Under the pieces are notes generated by a model that was not told where the DNA came from, ran no database searches, and saw only the letters and a program-made list of their open reading frames with translations. A stretch of DNA of 64,000 bases, taken from positions 124,001 to 188,000 of the forward strand of contig JAMPEJ010000003.1 in the NCBI GenBank assembly GCA_023665205.1, written 5' to 3'. This DNA is from Corallococcus sp. Lineage in GTDB: Bacteria > Bacillota > Clostridia > Christensenellales > CAG-314. Below, piece by piece: positions 20,444 to 31,402 of this stretch. Position numbers and translations under genes: made by a program. Each line of letters begins with the position of its first letter. The first letter of the stretch is position 1.

Positions 20444-20519
20444 TGGTGGAGATAACGAGATTCGAACTCGTGACCTTTTGACTGCCAGTCAAACGCGCTA
20501 CCAACTGCGCCATACCCCC
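20444..20519 (-). tRNA. tRNA-Ala (anticodon GGC)
   Basis: 76 bases including encoded CCA. All arms fold: acceptor GGGGGTA/TATCTCC with the G3-U70 alanine identity pair, D-arm GCGC/GCGC, anticodon stem TTTGA/TCAAA with loop CTGGCAG, T-arm ACGAG/CTCGT. Its first 19 bases and upstream DNA are repeated at 20660-20785. Confidence 0.95.
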
Positions 20520-20626
20520 ACGTATTATTAAGTTAAAATATAATTCTCTATATGATTTCAAGCAGTTGGTAGCGCCCAAGGCGCTTCCTCGCTTCAAGCA
20601 CAGCTTTCGCGGGCTTTGGCTAACAA
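20501..20626 (-). repeat. Direct repeat copy 1, including 5' end of tRNA-Ala(GGC)
   Basis: 126 bases identical to 20660-20785 (period 159). It contains the first 19 bases of the tRNA gene, its presumed promoter region and, at about 20569-20582, an inverted copy of the D-arm (minus strand GCGCTACCAACTGC). Confidence 0.9.
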
Positions 20627-20659
20627 CAGCATACTATGCTGTTGTTTTAACGCGTCGCC

Positions 20660-20785
20660 CCAACTGCGCCATACCCCCACGTATTATTAAGTTAAAATAT
20701 AATTCTCTATATGATTTCAAGCAGTTGGTAGCGCCCAAGGCGCTTCCTCGCTTCAAGCACAGCTTTCGCGGGCTTTGGCTAACAA
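20660..20785 (-). repeat. Direct repeat copy 2, with truncated tRNA-Ala
   Basis: Second copy of the 126-base unit. The tRNA sequence stops inside the D-loop (GGCGCAGTTGG) and continues into unrelated DNA that includes a short palindrome (AACAGCATA/TATGCTGTT, about 20624-20645). Confidence 0.9.
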
Positions 20786-23545: not shown

Positions 23546-23575
23546 TAAAAAACACTGCCGAAGGACAGTGTTTTG
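23546..23575 (-). terminator. Terminator after the tRNA-Ile pseudogene
   Basis: AAAACACTG / CAGTGTTTT hairpin with a T-rich tail, directly after the CCA of the degenerate tRNA-Ile copy. Confidence 0.75.
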
Positions 23576-23710
23576 GTTGGAGCAAGTGGACTCGTGCAAG
23601 GAGCGCAGAGATGCCCCTAAGCACATTTGCAAGGCAAATCGCGTCCTCAGTACCCCACCTTATTTGGCGAAAGACACGCCAATGTTTCAGGGTGGTGCTC
23701 TAACCTACCG
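23576..23710 (-). pseudogene. tRNA-Ile-like pseudogene with two inserted segments
   Basis: Minus strand: GGTAGGTTAGAGCACCACCCTG (read as D-loop to anticodon, 23688-23710), then about 24 bases with a TTGGCG/CGCCAA hairpin inside the anticodon loop, then ATAAGGTGGGG, then about 59 unrelated bases replacing the T-stem 5' half, then GAGTCCACTTGCTCCAACCA, an intact tRNA 3' end. The acceptor 5' strand is missing. The 59-base insert resembles 31328-31379. Confidence 0.75.
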
Positions 23711-23715
23711 TACAA

Positions 23716-23745
23716 AGAAAGTACCGCTTTTTCTGCGGTACTTTT
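23716..23745 (-). terminator. Terminator of tRNA-Ile
   Basis: AAAGTACCGC / GCGGTACTTT hairpin directly after the CCA end of the functional tRNA-Ile, ahead of the pseudogene. Confidence 0.7.
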
Positions 23746-23821
23746 GGTTGGAGCAAGTGGACTCGAACCACCGACCCCCACCTTATCAGGGTGGTGCTCT
23801 AACCTACTGAGCTATGCTCCA
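23745..23821 (-). tRNA. tRNA-Ile (anticodon GAT)
   Basis: 77 bases with encoded CCA. Acceptor TGGAGCA/TGCTCCA, D-arm GCTC/GAGC, anticodon stem CCACC/GGTGG with loop CTGATAA, T-arm GGTGG/CCACT. Discriminator A, matching the UGGU of the ileS T-box. Flanked by partial copies of itself on both sides. Confidence 0.95.
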
Positions 23822-23986
23822 TCGTTGCATTATTCATTTTGTGCATAATCCGTTTCAGCTGTCACCACCCTGTGTTTCATTGTGGTGCTCTAACCTACTG
23901 AGCTATGCTCCATCGTTGCATTATTCATTTTGTGCATAATCCGTTTCAGCTGTCACCACCCTGTGTTTCATTGTGGTGCTCTAAGC
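23791..23986 (-). repeat. 91-base tandem repeat carrying the tRNA-Ile 5' half
   Basis: Units 23791-23881 and 23882-23972 plus a partial third (to 23986), period 91. Each unit has the tRNA-Ile 5' acceptor strand and D-arm together with the presumed promoter DNA before it. In the extra copies the anticodon arm is degenerate (CACCACAATGAAACACAGGG). Confidence 0.9.
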
Positions 23987-26531: not shown

Positions 26532-29500
26532 CTAGAAAATCAATACCGAATCGATATTCGCTTCCCCGACACACTTGACCACCACACTGTGCTTACCCTG
26601 CGCCAACTCCGACGTAAGATAGCAAACGGCAAAGTCGTTATCGTCTTTTTTTAACGCGATCGACTCTACTAATTGACCGTCAACGTACACTTCAAAATTC
26701 TTACCGTAATATTTCGAAGAAATAATTCCTACGCGCGTACCTTCGAATTCGAACTTCATCTCCGCGCCCTTATCGCCCACGTAAACGTGTCCGAAACTGG
26801 AACTTGCCTGTTCCGCTTTCCATGGACCCGTGCATAAAAATTTGTCGTTATCCGGAGAGTACTGCTTGCCTCCTTTTATTTCCACCGCTTTCAACAATTC
26901 TATTCCGCCGATAATTATCTCTCCGCTGTAGGATTCGGTAATAACCAACTTGTAATAACGTAAGTAGGCGGCGTCAAAATTAACGGTCACAGTGCTGCCG
27001 GAACGCGGAACGTTGGTAAATTCTCCTACCGTAAAAAATTCCTCTCCGTCTAAGCTGCCGTAAAGAGTAAAGCTTTTGGCAACTTTCCAATCGCCGTTAG
27101 GTCTGTACTGACTGTAAATCGTCATGCGGTTTACAACTTGCGCCTTACCGGTATCGATAACCAATTCCAAAGGCTTGCTTGCACTGACTCCTTCTTTCGT
27201 ATGAATAAAAGTAGCATTATTACCGTCCGTAAGATTAGAAAGCGGATAGTTACCCCAACCCCAATTTAACGGGGGAGCAACATAATTGTGAGATACGACT
27301 TCTTCCGAAGTTGCAAATTCGTACTCCGTGTAGTCGTAATCGTATTCGCGCGTATAGAAGTAGTCGCTTTCAAATTGCTTCGTAAATTCGTACGACTGTC
27401 TGTAAGCGGTAGCGTAAGTGGCGCTTGTAGGAGGTACCGGAGTAGTATTGCTTGCTTCCTCCGCAGTGACTTCTTGACCGCGTTCGTTGTAGTAATGAGT
27501 GCGGGAAGTAACTGCAGTTGCATCGCCCGCGGGTACTTCGTTACCATCCGCGTCGTAGAACTTTTCCACCGTAGTATACATCGGAGTAGTCCAACTTCCT
27601 ATACCCAAGCCGACGTAACTTGCCGTATTGGCTTTTGGAGATAACGGCACGGTTATCAGCACCTCCTTAAAATAGATCCATTCTTCCGCATTGACGTACA
27701 CGTCTTTGTAGGTATTGGGATCGTTCAAACGGAAATCCGCACTGCCGGTGCTTGGAGCCTTCTCTTCCTGTATATAGGCAACCTTCTCATAAGTTTTTCC
27801 GTTATCGCGAGAGATGTACAACGCGCAACTTATGCGGCCGCGCAAGTAAATTCTGTACATACCGGCCTCGGGGAAATACAGTTTGCCTTTGATTTCGAAT
27901 ATCTGATTTTTATTTACGACGTAACCTTCGTAAGCCGGATTGTTGACGTTAGCGTCGGAATCGCCGTACAACCAAACGTCCGTATTGCTGTTTTGCGAGA
28001 TGTTTTTGTTATCGACGGTTTCCGCACTTATAGCGCCGCGGTAGTTGTTTTCGTAAGCTTCCGCAGCGTCGGTGTAATTTTCCCCCTCCTCAAAAGTGTA
28101 AACCGTACGTTCCAAAATAGCTTTGTTGCTTTCGTGCGACTGCTGAAATTCCAAAATCAAATCCACGTCGTCAAGCGGCTTGCCGTTGTAGGTATGACTG
28201 CCGTCTTCCGTAGTTATTTCTACCGTGACGTAAATTTTACCGGAGTTCAATTCCTCGTTGGGCGTAAACTTGTATACGCCTTTGGTTTCCGTTTCTTCAA
28301 ACTTGCCGTTGATAGCGTCCGCCCTTACGTTTTTTACCGTTGCCTTAAAGCCGTTGCCTACGACTATGCTGCCGTATTCATACTGACTGTCGTCATTGAC
28401 GTGATACTCTCGCAGATCCACAATATAGGATTTGCCGGAAGGAATAACAAACGGCTGCATTGTGGAAATTTCCCGCTTTTCCACCGTTCCGTCGTCATTG
28501 ACGTAATTGTACGTTCTACCCGTCTGATAAACGCTGGATACGGGAACAAACGTCGGATAATCGGTGGCGGCCGGAGTTACCACGCTGCCGGTATAGGCGG
28601 TAATTTGCGATGCAAAATAAGTGAAATCCAGATGAGTATTTGCCGCCCATTTGTTGAAGTAAGCGGCGCCGGATGCGCCCGTAGACTTGATAAACGCGTC
28701 CTGCCCCAAGTTGTGCAACAACGTTGCGTAAACAGCCAAACCGTTTGTAGAGTTTATCTCGCCTGTATTTACGCGGTTGAGCGCCCAAGTGGCGCTTGTA
28801 TAACAGTTCCAGCCGGAAAGACCTGATCCGCCGTAAGAACTCAATTGCCGCGCGGAGGAAATCTTTGTAAACAAACTGTACGAGACCAGATTCAGCGCAT
28901 TGTTTGTAACTTCGCCAGTGTAACCGACGCCGTAATTTTGGAAATTGTGGTGATACTCGTGCATATTGCCCCAAGCGCCGGAAGTAACGAAAGAATTGTA
29001 GTTCAAGGAACTTGTCATCCAACCCGCAGGGCAGTTGACGGACCGCCTTCCGGGGAAAGCAACCGCAGCGCCGGCGGCAACGAACGGGTCGTACAAAAAG
29101 ACTATGCCTTGATTAGATACTCTGCTGCTGACAAGCGATATTTTTTCCCAAAGTATAGCCGCCTTGTATAGGTCGTCGTAACTGAAATTTTTTGCATAGT
29201 ACATGGGTCCGGAATGAAGCACGCCGCTATCCCATACTTCCAAATCGAAGTACGGCGCGGAAGACTTAGCATACGTTTCGTACTCTTCCTTCGTCGTTAC
29301 GCCCAATATAAAGTGAGCATAGTTTACTCCGCCGGAAATTGTAACCGAAAACGTGGACGACTCCGAACGGATATATATGGGACCGCCCAAGAAAGAGCCT
29401 ACGTAAGCGGTATATACGCCGTCTTCCAGTTCTGCCGTATCTTTGGTTATGTTCATTGTATTCAAGATAACCGGCATACGGTTAAAGTTTCTGGCCGACC

Positions 29501-30533
29501 AAATATTGTTGGCCTGACCGTTGTACAGCGCCTGCCCGATATGCACCGTTATGCCGGACGTTGCGTTCATGTCCGACTCGCTTATCTGAATTTTGATAAC
29601 CTCTCCGGCCGGAGCATAAAGCCCCGTTACGCTGTAATAACTACCGTACGTTCTCGGACGGAAAGTAAGACGTTTGATTACGGCAGGTTCGTCGTCGGCA
29701 ACGTTGCCCATGTACAAATTTACGGAACCGGTATGTTTGTAAAGTTGCGTTATGCCGCCGTCCGGCACAGTGTAATCGCTGCGTGTCCCGACGTACAAAT
29801 TGCCGTCCTTGTCCATCCAATCGTAAAGGCCGCCCGTATTAGTTGTAGGTTTGGCGCACAACTTTTTATTTTCTGCAAGTATAGCGTTTTTCTGTTCCGT
29901 AGTAAGAGATAAAGTGTGATCGTACTCGGGATAGCCTGTTTCCAACCCTCCGTCGCGAATTCCGTCCACGGGTTTGTACCTTTCCACAGTTCCCAACACT
30001 TCCGACGAATACCCTACCTTAGTTGCGCTTTTGTAAGCGTTTACAAACGGAATATCAAGAGAATCGTTGCAACTCTTTAACCCCAACGCCAAACCCAGAC
30101 AAAGCGAAAAAGTTAGTACAAGCAGCATTATTATCGCGCAAATACGGAAAGTTTCCGTCTTGACAAATTCCTCTACGGTCATTTCCGCGATGCGTTTGCC
30201 CTGCCGTGCGGAATCGGCGCGCGATGCAGAGTCGGTTTTCGTATTATCGTGCAAGTTGTCCGCAACGGATTTTGATCTTGCCGACACGCTTTTTTTAGTT
30301 TTAGGCAACGACTCGGACTTAGGCGCTGCGGCCTCGGCAGACTTTACGTCTGCGGGGACTTTCTCCGAAGCAGATTTTGCACGAGACGGCTTGGAGGTCT
30401 GCGTCTTAGCGTTTGACGTTTTGGGAGTCTTTGCAGCGGTTTTAGACGTATCCGAGACCGAATTTGCGGTAGCGGACTTTTTCGTTTCGTTTTCCGAATG
30501 CTTTACGTTGGATTTCTTTTCTTTATCCGTCAT
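26532..30533 (-). CDS. M60-like (mucin/glycoprotein-directed) metallopeptidase, membrane anchored
   Basis: 1333 residues. Residues 1-130 are a Lys/Ser/Ala/Thr-rich cytosolic segment without hydrophobic residues; one helix at 131-152 anchors the protein with its bulk outside. The zinc motif HEYHH is at 525-529, followed by FQNYGVGYTGEVTNNA, fitting the M60/enhancin pattern HExxH...E. Downstream are strand-rich modules and a discoidin-like (F5/8 type C, CBM32) domain at about 1088-1214 (LSNLTDGNNATF ... LRYYKLVITES), then a last sugar- or glycan-binding-like domain. Known M60 members cleave O-glycosylated mucins. The ATG is preceded by AGGAG. Second M60-like protein in the window at 34309. Confidence 0.85.
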   Translation of the reverse strand: MTDKEKKSNVKHSENETKKSATANSVSDTSKTAAKTPKTSNAKTQTSKPSRAKSASEKVPADVKSAEAAAPKSESLPKTKKSVSARSKSVADNLHDNTKTDSASRADSARQGKRIAEMTVEEFVKTETFRICAIIMLLVLTFSLCLGLALGLKSCNDSLDIPFVNAYKSATKVGYSSEVLGTVERYKPVDGIRDGGLETGYPEYDHTLSLTTEQKNAILAENKKLCAKPTTNTGGLYDWMDKDGNLYVGTRSDYTVPDGGITQLYKHTGSVNLYMGNVADDEPAVIKRLTFRPRTYGSYYSVTGLYAPAGEVIKIQISESDMNATSGITVHIGQALYNGQANNIWSARNFNRMPVILNTMNITKDTAELEDGVYTAYVGSFLGGPIYIRSESSTFSVTISGGVNYAHFILGVTTKEEYETYAKSSAPYFDLEVWDSGVLHSGPMYYAKNFSYDDLYKAAILWEKISLVSSRVSNQGIVFLYDPFVAAGAAVAFPGRRSVNCPAGWMTSSLNYNSFVTSGAWGNMHEYHHNFQNYGVGYTGEVTNNALNLVSYSLFTKISSARQLSSYGGSGLSGWNCYTSATWALNRVNTGEINSTNGLAVYATLLHNLGQDAFIKSTGASGAAYFNKWAANTHLDFTYFASQITAYTGSVVTPAATDYPTFVPVSSVYQTGRTYNYVNDDGTVEKREISTMQPFVIPSGKSYIVDLREYHVNDDSQYEYGSIVVGNGFKATVKNVRADAINGKFEETETKGVYKFTPNEELNSGKIYVTVEITTEDGSHTYNGKPLDDVDLILEFQQSHESNKAILERTVYTFEEGENYTDAAEAYENNYRGAISAETVDNKNISQNSNTDVWLYGDSDANVNNPAYEGYVVNKNQIFEIKGKLYFPEAGMYRIYLRGRISCALYISRDNGKTYEKVAYIQEEKAPSTGSADFRLNDPNTYKDVYVNAEEWIYFKEVLITVPLSPKANTASYVGLGIGSWTTPMYTTVEKFYDADGNEVPAGDATAVTSRTHYYNERGQEVTAEEASNTTPVPPTSATYATAYRQSYEFTKQFESDYFYTREYDYDYTEYEFATSEEVVSHNYVAPPLNWGWGNYPLSNLTDGNNATFIHTKEGVSASKPLELVIDTGKAQVVNRMTIYSQYRPNGDWKVAKSFTLYGSLDGEEFFTVGEFTNVPRSGSTVTVNFDAAYLRYYKLVITESYSGEIIIGGIELLKAVEIKGGKQYSPDNDKFLCTGPWKAEQASSSFGHVYVGDKGAEMKFEFEGTRVGIISSKYYGKNFEVYVDGQLVESIALKKDDNDFAVCYLTSELAQGKHSVVVKCVGEANIDSVLIF

Positions 30534-30809: not shown

Positions 30810-30882
30810 GGGGGTATACTCCGCTACGCTCCGTGGCGTTCGCACCTATCGGCGCTCGGCTAAGGGCTCTGACCGTACCCCC
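30810..30882 (+). repeat. tRNA-Ala-headed chimeric element C, tRNA-sized hairpin
   Basis: 73 bases beginning GGGGGTA and ending TACCCCC, so the two ends pair like an acceptor stem. The inside has no D, anticodon or T-arm consensus but shares the core GGCGTTCGCACCTRTCGGCG with 20822-20875 near tRNA-Ala(GGC). Confidence 0.75.
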
Positions 30883-30894
30883 GCAAATAAGTTT

Positions 30895-30970
30895 GGGGGT
30901 ATGGCTCAGTTGGTAGAGCGATGCGTTCGCAACGCATAGGTCACGAGTTCGAATCTCGTTATCTCCACCA
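30895..30970 (+). tRNA. tRNA-Ala (anticodon CGC)
   Basis: 76 bases with CCA. Acceptor GGGGGTA/TATCTCC with G3-U70, D-arm GCTC/GAGC, anticodon stem ATGCG/CGCAT with loop TTCGCAA, T-arm ACGAG/CTCGT. Confidence 0.95.
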
Positions 30971-31000
30971 GCAAGCGGCTTGCTTATTGGTCGCAAACTA

Positions 31001-31029
31001 AAAGGAACGCAATTACAGCGTTCCTTTTT
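31001..31029 (+). terminator. Terminator of tRNA-Ala(CGC)
   Basis: AAAGGAACGC / GCGTTCCTTT hairpin with T-tail, 30 bases after the CCA. Confidence 0.8.
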
Positions 31030-31133
31030 CCTTTGCTTCCTTTTGCTTCGCCGCCCTTCTATTGCAATAATCAAGACAGTCCGAAATGACGTAGCGCTCC
31101 GTTACACTCCGCTTACCCTTCGCTCCGCTCGGG

Positions 31134-31153
31134 ACGAATCTCGTTATCTCCAC
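31134..31153 (+). pseudogene. tRNA-Ala 3' fragment (T-loop to CCA)
   Basis: 20 bases identical to the last 20 of tRNA-Ala(CGC) (GAATCTCGTTATCTCCACCA). The break lies in the T-loop right after TTC, the same place as in the tRNA-Ile pseudogene. Confidence 0.85.
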
Positions 31154-31327
31154 CAACGTCGCAACACGACGTATTAAGCAAGGATTGCAACATTTTGTTG
31201 CAATCCTTTGCATTTGTGTCAGTTGCTCCTTTTCCCCACAAAAGCCTTTTTGTGGGGACCCCGAAAAGCTTGGTACATCGTACCAAGTCTTTTTTGTTGC
31301 TCACGCATAGTTCATGCGATCGCGAAC

Positions 31328-31402
31328 ACGCGCTTTGCTTTGCAAAGCCGCTGAGGGGCGTCGCTTCCGCTCCTTGCACGCAACGCATAGGTCACGAGTT
31401 CG
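31328..31402 (+). pseudogene. Insert plus internal tRNA-Ala fragment
   Basis: 31380-31402 is identical to the tRNA-Ala(CGC) part from the anticodon loop to the T-loop (GCAACGCATAGGTCACGAGT...). It is preceded by a 52-base segment ending CGCTCCTTGCAC, which resembles the large insert of the tRNA-Ile pseudogene. Confidence 0.75.

Follow-up and report, generated by a model that had tools for sequence, protein, structure and literature searches.

Introduction

In excerpts of the Islander report (PMC4383910), a regenerated tRNA gene with a displaced fragment is the mark of the tRNA islands made by tyrosine integrases; Islander rejects candidates below 2 kb, and island size peaks at 13.6 and 39.9 kb. 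Phage Ms6 recombines in the T-loop of a tRNA-Ala gene over a 26-bp core, according to excerpts of PMC1762012. For the casposase of A. boonei, the excerpted texts state that a motif, TCAAATC, upstream of the duplication matters (PMC6614799, PMC6977970). REP and other short palindromic elements are thought to be moved by Y1 (TnpA-REP) transposases, as put in an excerpt of PMC8266576.

Here we describe a tRNA-Ala(CGC) gene followed by two displaced pieces of itself. The window, that is, the whole stretch of DNA analysed, is 64,000 nucleotides long (bases 124001-188000 of contig 10) and belongs to a genome of 1.49 Mb in 16 contigs. The segment between the gene and the first displaced piece is referred to hereafter as E. 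Since related bacteria show this arrangement at a variety of tRNA genes, E is likely to be a tiny mobile element.

The tRNA-Ala(CGC) locus

The intact target gene, tRNA-Ala(CGC), lies on the plus strand at 30895-30970 (ARAGORN; Rfam, 71.1 bits). Its positions 56-76 (30950-30970, plus strand) form the first copy of a 21-nt duplication and correspond to the presumed restored 3' end; they match exactly the displaced second copy at 31135-31155 (plus strand). E, which is gene-free and 164 bp long, fills the space between the two copies (30971-31134, plus strand), an arrangement also seen in relatives. It contains a terminator-like hairpin of 11 pairs with a T run (31000-31028, plus strand), which is a covarying helix in 34 elements, and ends in a right segment (GAAATGACGTAGCGCTCC...CTCGGGA; 31083-31134, plus strand) that alignments show to be conserved. 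The window's copy scored 137.3 bits with a covariance model of E, which was built from 34 elements including this one. E together with its 21 nt folded better than all 200 shuffled versions (z -3.7).

A second, 24-nt piece of tRNA-Ala(CGC), positions 34-57, is an exact match at 31379-31402 (plus strand) and has the appearance of a truncated remnant of a longer displaced copy. It is preceded by an insert of a second family (31320-31378, plus strand; left end approximate), which was aligned with a complete relative and is common to the tRNA-Ile and tRNA-Arg(CCG) loci. Both displaced fragments have the same orientation as the intact gene. Upstream, at 30810-30882 (plus strand), an insert read from the sequence consists of tRNA positions 1-8, 57 bp and an inverted GTACCCCC, with 12 bp between it and the intact tRNA; part of this insert is also present in relatives. 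A large Peptidase M60 (enhancin-like) protein with an F5/8 type C domain adjoins the locus (window 26535-30533).

A reading of the window from its sequence only had reported that both fragments are exact copies. This was confirmed, with coordinates shifted by 1-2, but its placement of the break after TTC (TTC^G) was not: C56 or C34 is the first base of the copied piece, and the base ahead of it differs, so the junction is TT^C.

Similar pieces were sought with 13-nt exact words in 131 kb of the 1.49-Mb genome, comprising tRNA surroundings and the window. Same-orientation pieces of the gene itself were present within 500 bp at eight of the 43 tRNA genes of this genome, and non-cognate matches of at least 15 nt were confined to two tRNA-Ala genes with a common 3' end. 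The fragments are therefore not chance matches.

Junctions between E and tRNA genes

The general pattern in relatives was an intact tRNA gene, about 160 bp of E directly after CCA and then the last 21 nt of the same tRNA (C56-A76). The stretch that ends at the first tRNA-Ala(CGC) fragment of the window recurs in relatives. Copies of tRNA 3' ends were counted in 205 tRNA contexts, which yielded 83 distinct exact copies of at least 14 nt; as the contexts were chosen by their match to E or to a tRNA, the counts describe junctions and not a rate. Sixty-three of the 83 copies were 21 nt long, three were 22 nt and four were 24 nt, the remainder ranging from 14 to 70 nt. The rightward match ended at CCA or no more than 3 bases from it in 62 of 83 copies and extended for at least 30 bases in eight of 83, which are tandem arrays. 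Bases 53-55 of the tRNA read GTT in 210 of 217 contexts, which makes the junction GTT^C.

The sequence-only reading had preferred a targeted process to random decay, and this preference gained support from the break at T55^C56 in 63 of the 83 exact 3'-end copies, from the many tRNA types concerned and from empty sites in relatives (below). The second-family pieces and truncated copies, which look decayed, and the 20 of 83 copies that are not 21 nt long could speak for tRNA pseudogenes that arose by random tandem duplication and then decayed, or else for an assembly error. Either explanation is very improbable given the prevailing 21-nt junction, which was seen again in 25 genomes and across the named assemblies of several projects.

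Structure of E

Fifty-seven units with the right-end motif were 151-174 bp long (median 162). The last base of E was A in 56 of the 57, and the end was mostly GGA or AGA. No closed frame longer than 46 aa occurred in these 57 units, nor was an integrase gene present in any unit examined. The left part of E is a long hairpin with a terminator-like core. When 34 sequences were compared, 15 of 21 predicted pairs had survived, in one sequence or more, the replacement of both partners. The right third contains GAAATRAYGTAGCGCTCC and a last small hairpin. E itself matched nothing in Rfam, either in the window at gathering scores or at five loci at E-values up to 0.5.

The segment before the right third, hereafter the arm, can pair with tRNA positions of about 59-69; in many but not all units it is an inverted piece of the unit's own target tRNA. 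The longest complementary run of the arm averaged 5.68 with its own tRNA vs 4.12 with other tRNAs, and the maximum in 300 draws was 4.49 (53 of 78 units, the 25 that lack the anchor motif having been left out). When bulges were allowed, 25 of 54 units had their own tRNA among the strongest 10% in a set of about 120 alternatives; the 54 were drawn from 82, of which 28 without the anchor motif were set aside, and are not independent of each other. The mean rank was better than half in 14 of 17 tRNA types. The signal was missing at Ala(CGC), Ser(TGA) and Leu(CAA), the window's own element included, whose arm is poor (a run of 4; mean rank for tRNA-Ala(CGC), 0.78).

The duplication might also be produced by staggered-cut transposition, with the strands cut by a transposase or casposase-like integrase at T55/C56 and behind A76; the 21 nt would then be a target-site duplication that arises with each insertion, and E would have no tRNA sequence besides the arm. 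A 21-nt duplication, and the position of E beside many tRNA types with matching copies, are what such cuts would leave, and excerpts on casposases describe insertion at tRNA 3' ends with duplications (PMC6614799, PMC6977970). The duplications in those excerpts are 14-15 bp, however, and in the M. mazei case the overlap with the tRNA gene is confined to its last 4 bp. In addition, Cas1 was found in 5 of 25 genomes, that of the window not among them, terminal inverted repeats are absent from E (6.74 of 16 matches vs 6.43 in shuffled sequences, 57 units), and a target-matching arm would need rewriting at every jump. We consider staggered cutting unlikely, although well short of far-fetched.

Distribution and empty sites

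The covariance model had matches in all 25 genus genomes examined, at 4-40 places each (E-value up to 0.01). Across the order, 58 of 297 genomes had a match: 16 of the genus, four of the family but of other genera, and 38 outside the family. Two genomes from other genera of the family had no match to the model, and 28 of the 38 matching genomes from other families had a single match, which may be a mere terminator-like hairpin. From the matches we took 178 (150 in the genus and 28 outside), of which 116 (88 and 28, respectively) were in the sequence analysed. Within the genus, 59 of 88 matches started at most 14 nt from a tRNA CCA, and these followed 21 tRNA types; ten of the 88 lay further from a tRNA and 19 had no tRNA called upstream, several of the latter following a CCA-like remnant or lying at a contig end. 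The 21-nt copy was exact at 27 of the 59 adjacent matches and had one mismatch at seven and two at two (36 of 59 with at most two mismatches), while at the other 23 it had three or more mismatches or was absent. Outside the genus, 13 of 28 places adjoined CCA, and five of these 13 had a 21-nt copy with at most one mismatch.

The conserved motif was also present in 38 stretches of named records, titled as uncultured Clostridia or Clostridiales (isolates Lapin, Reindeer, Roe deer and others), Corallococcus sp. and Candidatus Fimimonas. Candidatus Fimimonas is placed under Myxococcaceae in the NCBI taxonomy and most related records are titled Clostridia; this is probably a naming error. Among the eight of 21 phage records listed, the match was in the tRNA part only. 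A plasmid search gave no match with the E part, and no viral contig carried the E motif.

Empty sites were looked for by comparing 83 filled with 134 unfilled contexts within tRNA types, and the pairs ranked 1, 3 and 5 were used. In each, the flanks aligned from base 0: Ala(CGC) in genomes G004 and G014, Ser(TGA) in G003 and G011, and Val(GAC) in G034 and the window genome, the last being the empty one. The pair ranked 2, Pro(GGG), was rejected as the flank is itself E-like, and the pair ranked 4 (L040) was left out as its alignment starts at base 4 rather than 0. Since the flank directly after CCA in one genome is the flank after the displaced copy in the other, E and its 21 nt must have arrived or departed together. 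An identical picture would result if the DNA between the 21-nt repeats were precisely lost. We think it very probable that E and its 21 nt are inserted units.

Elements at the same tRNA in different genomes had a mean identity of 0.618 (87 pairs; 59 elements), and those at different tRNAs 0.572 within a genome (126 pairs) and 0.565 between genomes (1498 pairs). The best pair of whole elements at different tRNAs reached 0.84; as no near-identical whole elements were found at two tRNA types, recent jumping is unproven. For the left hairpin alone, identity reached 92% (88 bp) when a Val(CAC) element was compared with a Gln(CTG) element and 89% (90 bp) for Arg(CCG) against Gln(CTG), yet the arm, right part and 21 nt of these elements differ. 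Judged by these alignments, exchange of modules among target-specific elements would explain the hairpins at least as well as recent jumps. An element after tRNA-Met (G018 contig 54, 3604-3773) ends in the 21-nt 3' end of tRNA-Ser(GGA), a hybrid that fits recombination between elements. In G003 and G005, the 3' end found at the close of Pro(CGG) elements resembles that of Val(TAC).

These figures also bear on vertical inheritance of a selected structure, in which the duplicated 3' end is kept with E as a functional RNA or a spare recombination site, while the empty sites have arisen by loss. Matches to the model in 25 of 25 genomes, a covarying helix, and 21-nt copies that are often exact while the bodies of E average only about 0.57-0.62 identity would suit a structure under selection. 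Such a history agrees poorly with the patchy occurrence of E by tRNA and genome, with the tandem arrays and the matches away from tRNAs, and with the different insert families at the same tRNA genes, and we give it a small probability.

A second insert family and upstream inserts

The sequence-only reading had held that two unrelated tRNA genes share one insert joined at the same kind of site. The likeness on which this was based is real: the DNA before the second tRNA-Ala(CGC) fragment resembles the insert beside tRNA-Ile (81% identity over 53 bp, E-value 1.6e-6), and it also resembles a stretch downstream of tRNA-Arg(CCG) (77% over 68 bp, E-value 5.5e-6). A common insert thus exists, but the two tRNA-Ala fragments adjoin two different insert families, E and this one. 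At the tRNA-Ile locus, all on the minus strand, the intact tRNA-Ile(GAT) gene (23745-23821) is accompanied by a displaced 21-nt copy of its positions 57-77 (23574-23594), the second-family insert (23595-23652, far end approximate; the 53 bp align with 31328-31380), a fragment of positions 15-36 (23687-23708) and, upstream of the gene, a 5' fragment of positions 1-31 (23882-23912).

In another genome (G017, locus L296) tRNA-Ala(CGC) is followed by a complete second-family insert and then by a copy of positions 34-76. The insert and the copy meet at GTT^CG of the anticodon loop, and the duplication reaches about 55-60 bp past CCA into the genomic flank. By this comparison, the 34-57 fragment of the window appears to be the truncated counterpart of the 34-76 copy. 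We infer that it is a decayed relic of the other insert family, whose entry at the similar GTT^CG in the anticodon loop would have produced a longer duplication. At tRNA-Ile the second family has the T-loop junction and a 21-nt copy in the window genome, G017 and G034. The same kind of site, GTT^CG, is therefore used in the tRNA-Ile T-loop and in the tRNA-Ala(CGC) anticodon loop. In our reading of the alignments, the edges of the family in the window genome lie elsewhere within the tRNA 3' end at tRNA-Arg(CCG) and tRNA-Pro(CGG). The TTC rule is thus not general for this family, and these differing junctions count in part against the sequence-only reading.

Inserts also occur upstream of tRNA genes. 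In 214 contexts there were 20 copies of a tRNA 5' end (at least 14 nt); seven of the 20 were 19 nt long and ended at G19 of the D-loop, and others were 31 or 36 nt long and ended in the anticodon arm. Many of them precede an inverted piece of the tRNA. In the window, upstream inserts with inverted tRNA pieces were noted at 20562-20734 (tRNA 1-19), 23882-23912 (1-31) and 30810-30882 (1-8). The first belongs to tRNA-Ala(GGC) (20444-20519, minus strand), where the 5' fragment 1-19 (20660-20678, minus strand), upstream of the gene, is followed by an insert and an inverted D-arm. The tRNA-Leu(CAA) region of locus L108 has a second tRNA-Leu copy, in which the last 70 nt are intact and the D-loop is interrupted by a GC-rich insert (about 45 bp).

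Pieces with one edge at a mature tRNA end and the other in a loop or stem (56-76 downstream; 1-19, 1-31 and 1-36 upstream) could be taken for tRNA fragments (a 5' piece 1-19, a 5' half, a 3' piece with CCA) that were reverse transcribed and copied into DNA, and the window genome has two reverse-transcriptase matches. However, a reverse transcriptase was found in only 4 of 25 genomes and one copy in G017 runs past CCA into the genomic flank. CCA was encoded in all 203 tRNA contexts examined, so no RNA-only base could show. An origin by reverse transcription is highly doubtful.

Candidate recombinases

The sequence-only reading had proposed a search for a recombinase encoded elsewhere in the genome. 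The window genome has one match to the tyrosine-recombinase family. We take this single match to be of Xer-like length. Phage_integrase genes were present in 24 of the 25 genomes of the genus, the window genome having one. Reverse transcriptase was not found in 21 of the 25 (found in four, with two matches in the window genome), Y1 transposase not in 13 (found in 12; the match in the window genome has stop codons) and Cas1 not in 20, the window genome among them (found in five). These searches were made on draft genomes, in which some genes may be missed. Found in 4, 12 and 5 of the 25 genomes, reverse transcriptase, Y1 transposase and Cas1 were rejected as a general mover. Near tRNA-Gln(CTG) of the window genome (392145-392219) there are the remains of a Y1 transposase gene, interrupted by stops (C8:392490-392660), and a match to reverse transcriptase (C8:393696-394178).

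Tyrosine-recombinase genes lay within about 2 kb of matches to E at loci L273-L277 and L283. At L283 a truncated E precedes a XerC/D-like gene; this locus was rejected as an autonomous form, the whole 16.3-kb contig having no second 21-nt copy. In four other genomes (L274, L275, L278 and L279) a tyrosine-recombinase gene of 299-313 aa is upstream of, and divergent from, tRNA-Leu(CAG). An NCBIfam scan of three of these four genes (that of L279 was not included) gave two that score like the L283 gene, the L274 gene being more distant. We therefore do not claim an autonomous form of E. At L275 (2497-3257, G005 contig 13) about 760 bp with a second E lie between two copies of the tRNA-Leu(CAG) 3' end; a small gene there reads, in our labelling, like a zinc-ribbon protein, and this unit is possibly a cargo-carrying form.

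Discussion

Our overall reading, to which we give a probability of roughly 0.55, is that E is a miniature integrative element that splits the tRNA gene at T55^C56, restores the tRNA and is moved in trans by a tyrosine recombinase. E would integrate by splitting the gene in the T-loop between T55 and C56; integration would restore the 3' end of the tRNA and displace the old 21 nt. E itself would be mobile but non-autonomous, with a site-specific recombinase of the tyrosine-integrase type acting on its ends in trans; this kind of enzyme is suggested by the geometry, which is that of tRNA genomic islands. The inverted arm may pair with the 21-nt segment to give a folded, single-stranded recombination site, and the terminator of E may keep the tRNA gene working. 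The tyrosine-recombinase step taken singly has a probability that we would set slightly below even.

It counts against an integrase that each E would have to carry the 3' end of its own tRNA, yet matches follow 21 tRNA types. The lack of an integrase gene in every E unit examined and the single, Xer-like match in the window genome also weigh against it. A further reading is targeting by base pairing, with E as a class of gene-free mobile elements of its own: the arm, complementary to T-arm and acceptor sequences in the host tRNA, would fold with the 21-nt target into a single-stranded site and be repeatedly re-aimed, so that one family could have colonised about 20 tRNA types with the tRNA genes left intact. 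We regard this as a speculative and rather improbable scheme.

If integration by splitting of tRNA genes is correct, these genes in the bacteria studied here host swarms of mobile units about 100 times smaller than the tRNA islands that are usually mapped, units too small and too gene-poor for an island finder whose criteria are an integrase gene and a length of 2 kb or more. The elements would provide a naturally occurring set of recombination sites, each fitted to one of about 20 tRNAs, with which the choice and switch of tRNA targets by integrases could be studied, and the origin of a class of tRNA pseudogene fragments would be explained.

In the literature, such elements were not recognised in titles and the openings of abstracts, which does not prove their absence from print. 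E would represent tRNA-split integration, a known kind of event, at a scale and copy number that we have not seen described. REP elements, in the excerpted description, resemble E as short, gene-free, hairpin-rich repeats; E differs in occupying mostly one site of tRNA genes with a 21-nt copy, and Y1 transposase was found in 12 of 25 genomes. The palindromes of Volvox organelles are, in excerpts of PMC2670323, likewise tiny and selfish-looking, some of them nested, with a mover that is not settled, but they reside in organelle DNA and are not bound to one tRNA junction. MITEs are defined by terminal inverted repeats, which E lacks. The TCAAATC motif in the target of the A. boonei casposase is, as we read it, the T-loop. 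Family 2 casposons share with E insertion at tRNA 3' ends with a direct duplication (PMC6614799, PMC6977970, in excerpts); unlike E they have, in the same excerpts, a 14-15-bp duplication, terminal inverted repeats and their own cas1 gene. E differs from tRNA islands and prophages in its length of about 160 bp, its structure, its lack of an integrase or any other gene, its 4-40 model matches per genome and the inverted piece of the target tRNA that it often carries. It resembles them in having an intact tRNA and a displaced 3' fragment of the same orientation that starts in the T-loop or anticodon loop, at C56 of the T-loop for E (63 of 83) and at C34 of the anticodon for the second family in G017.
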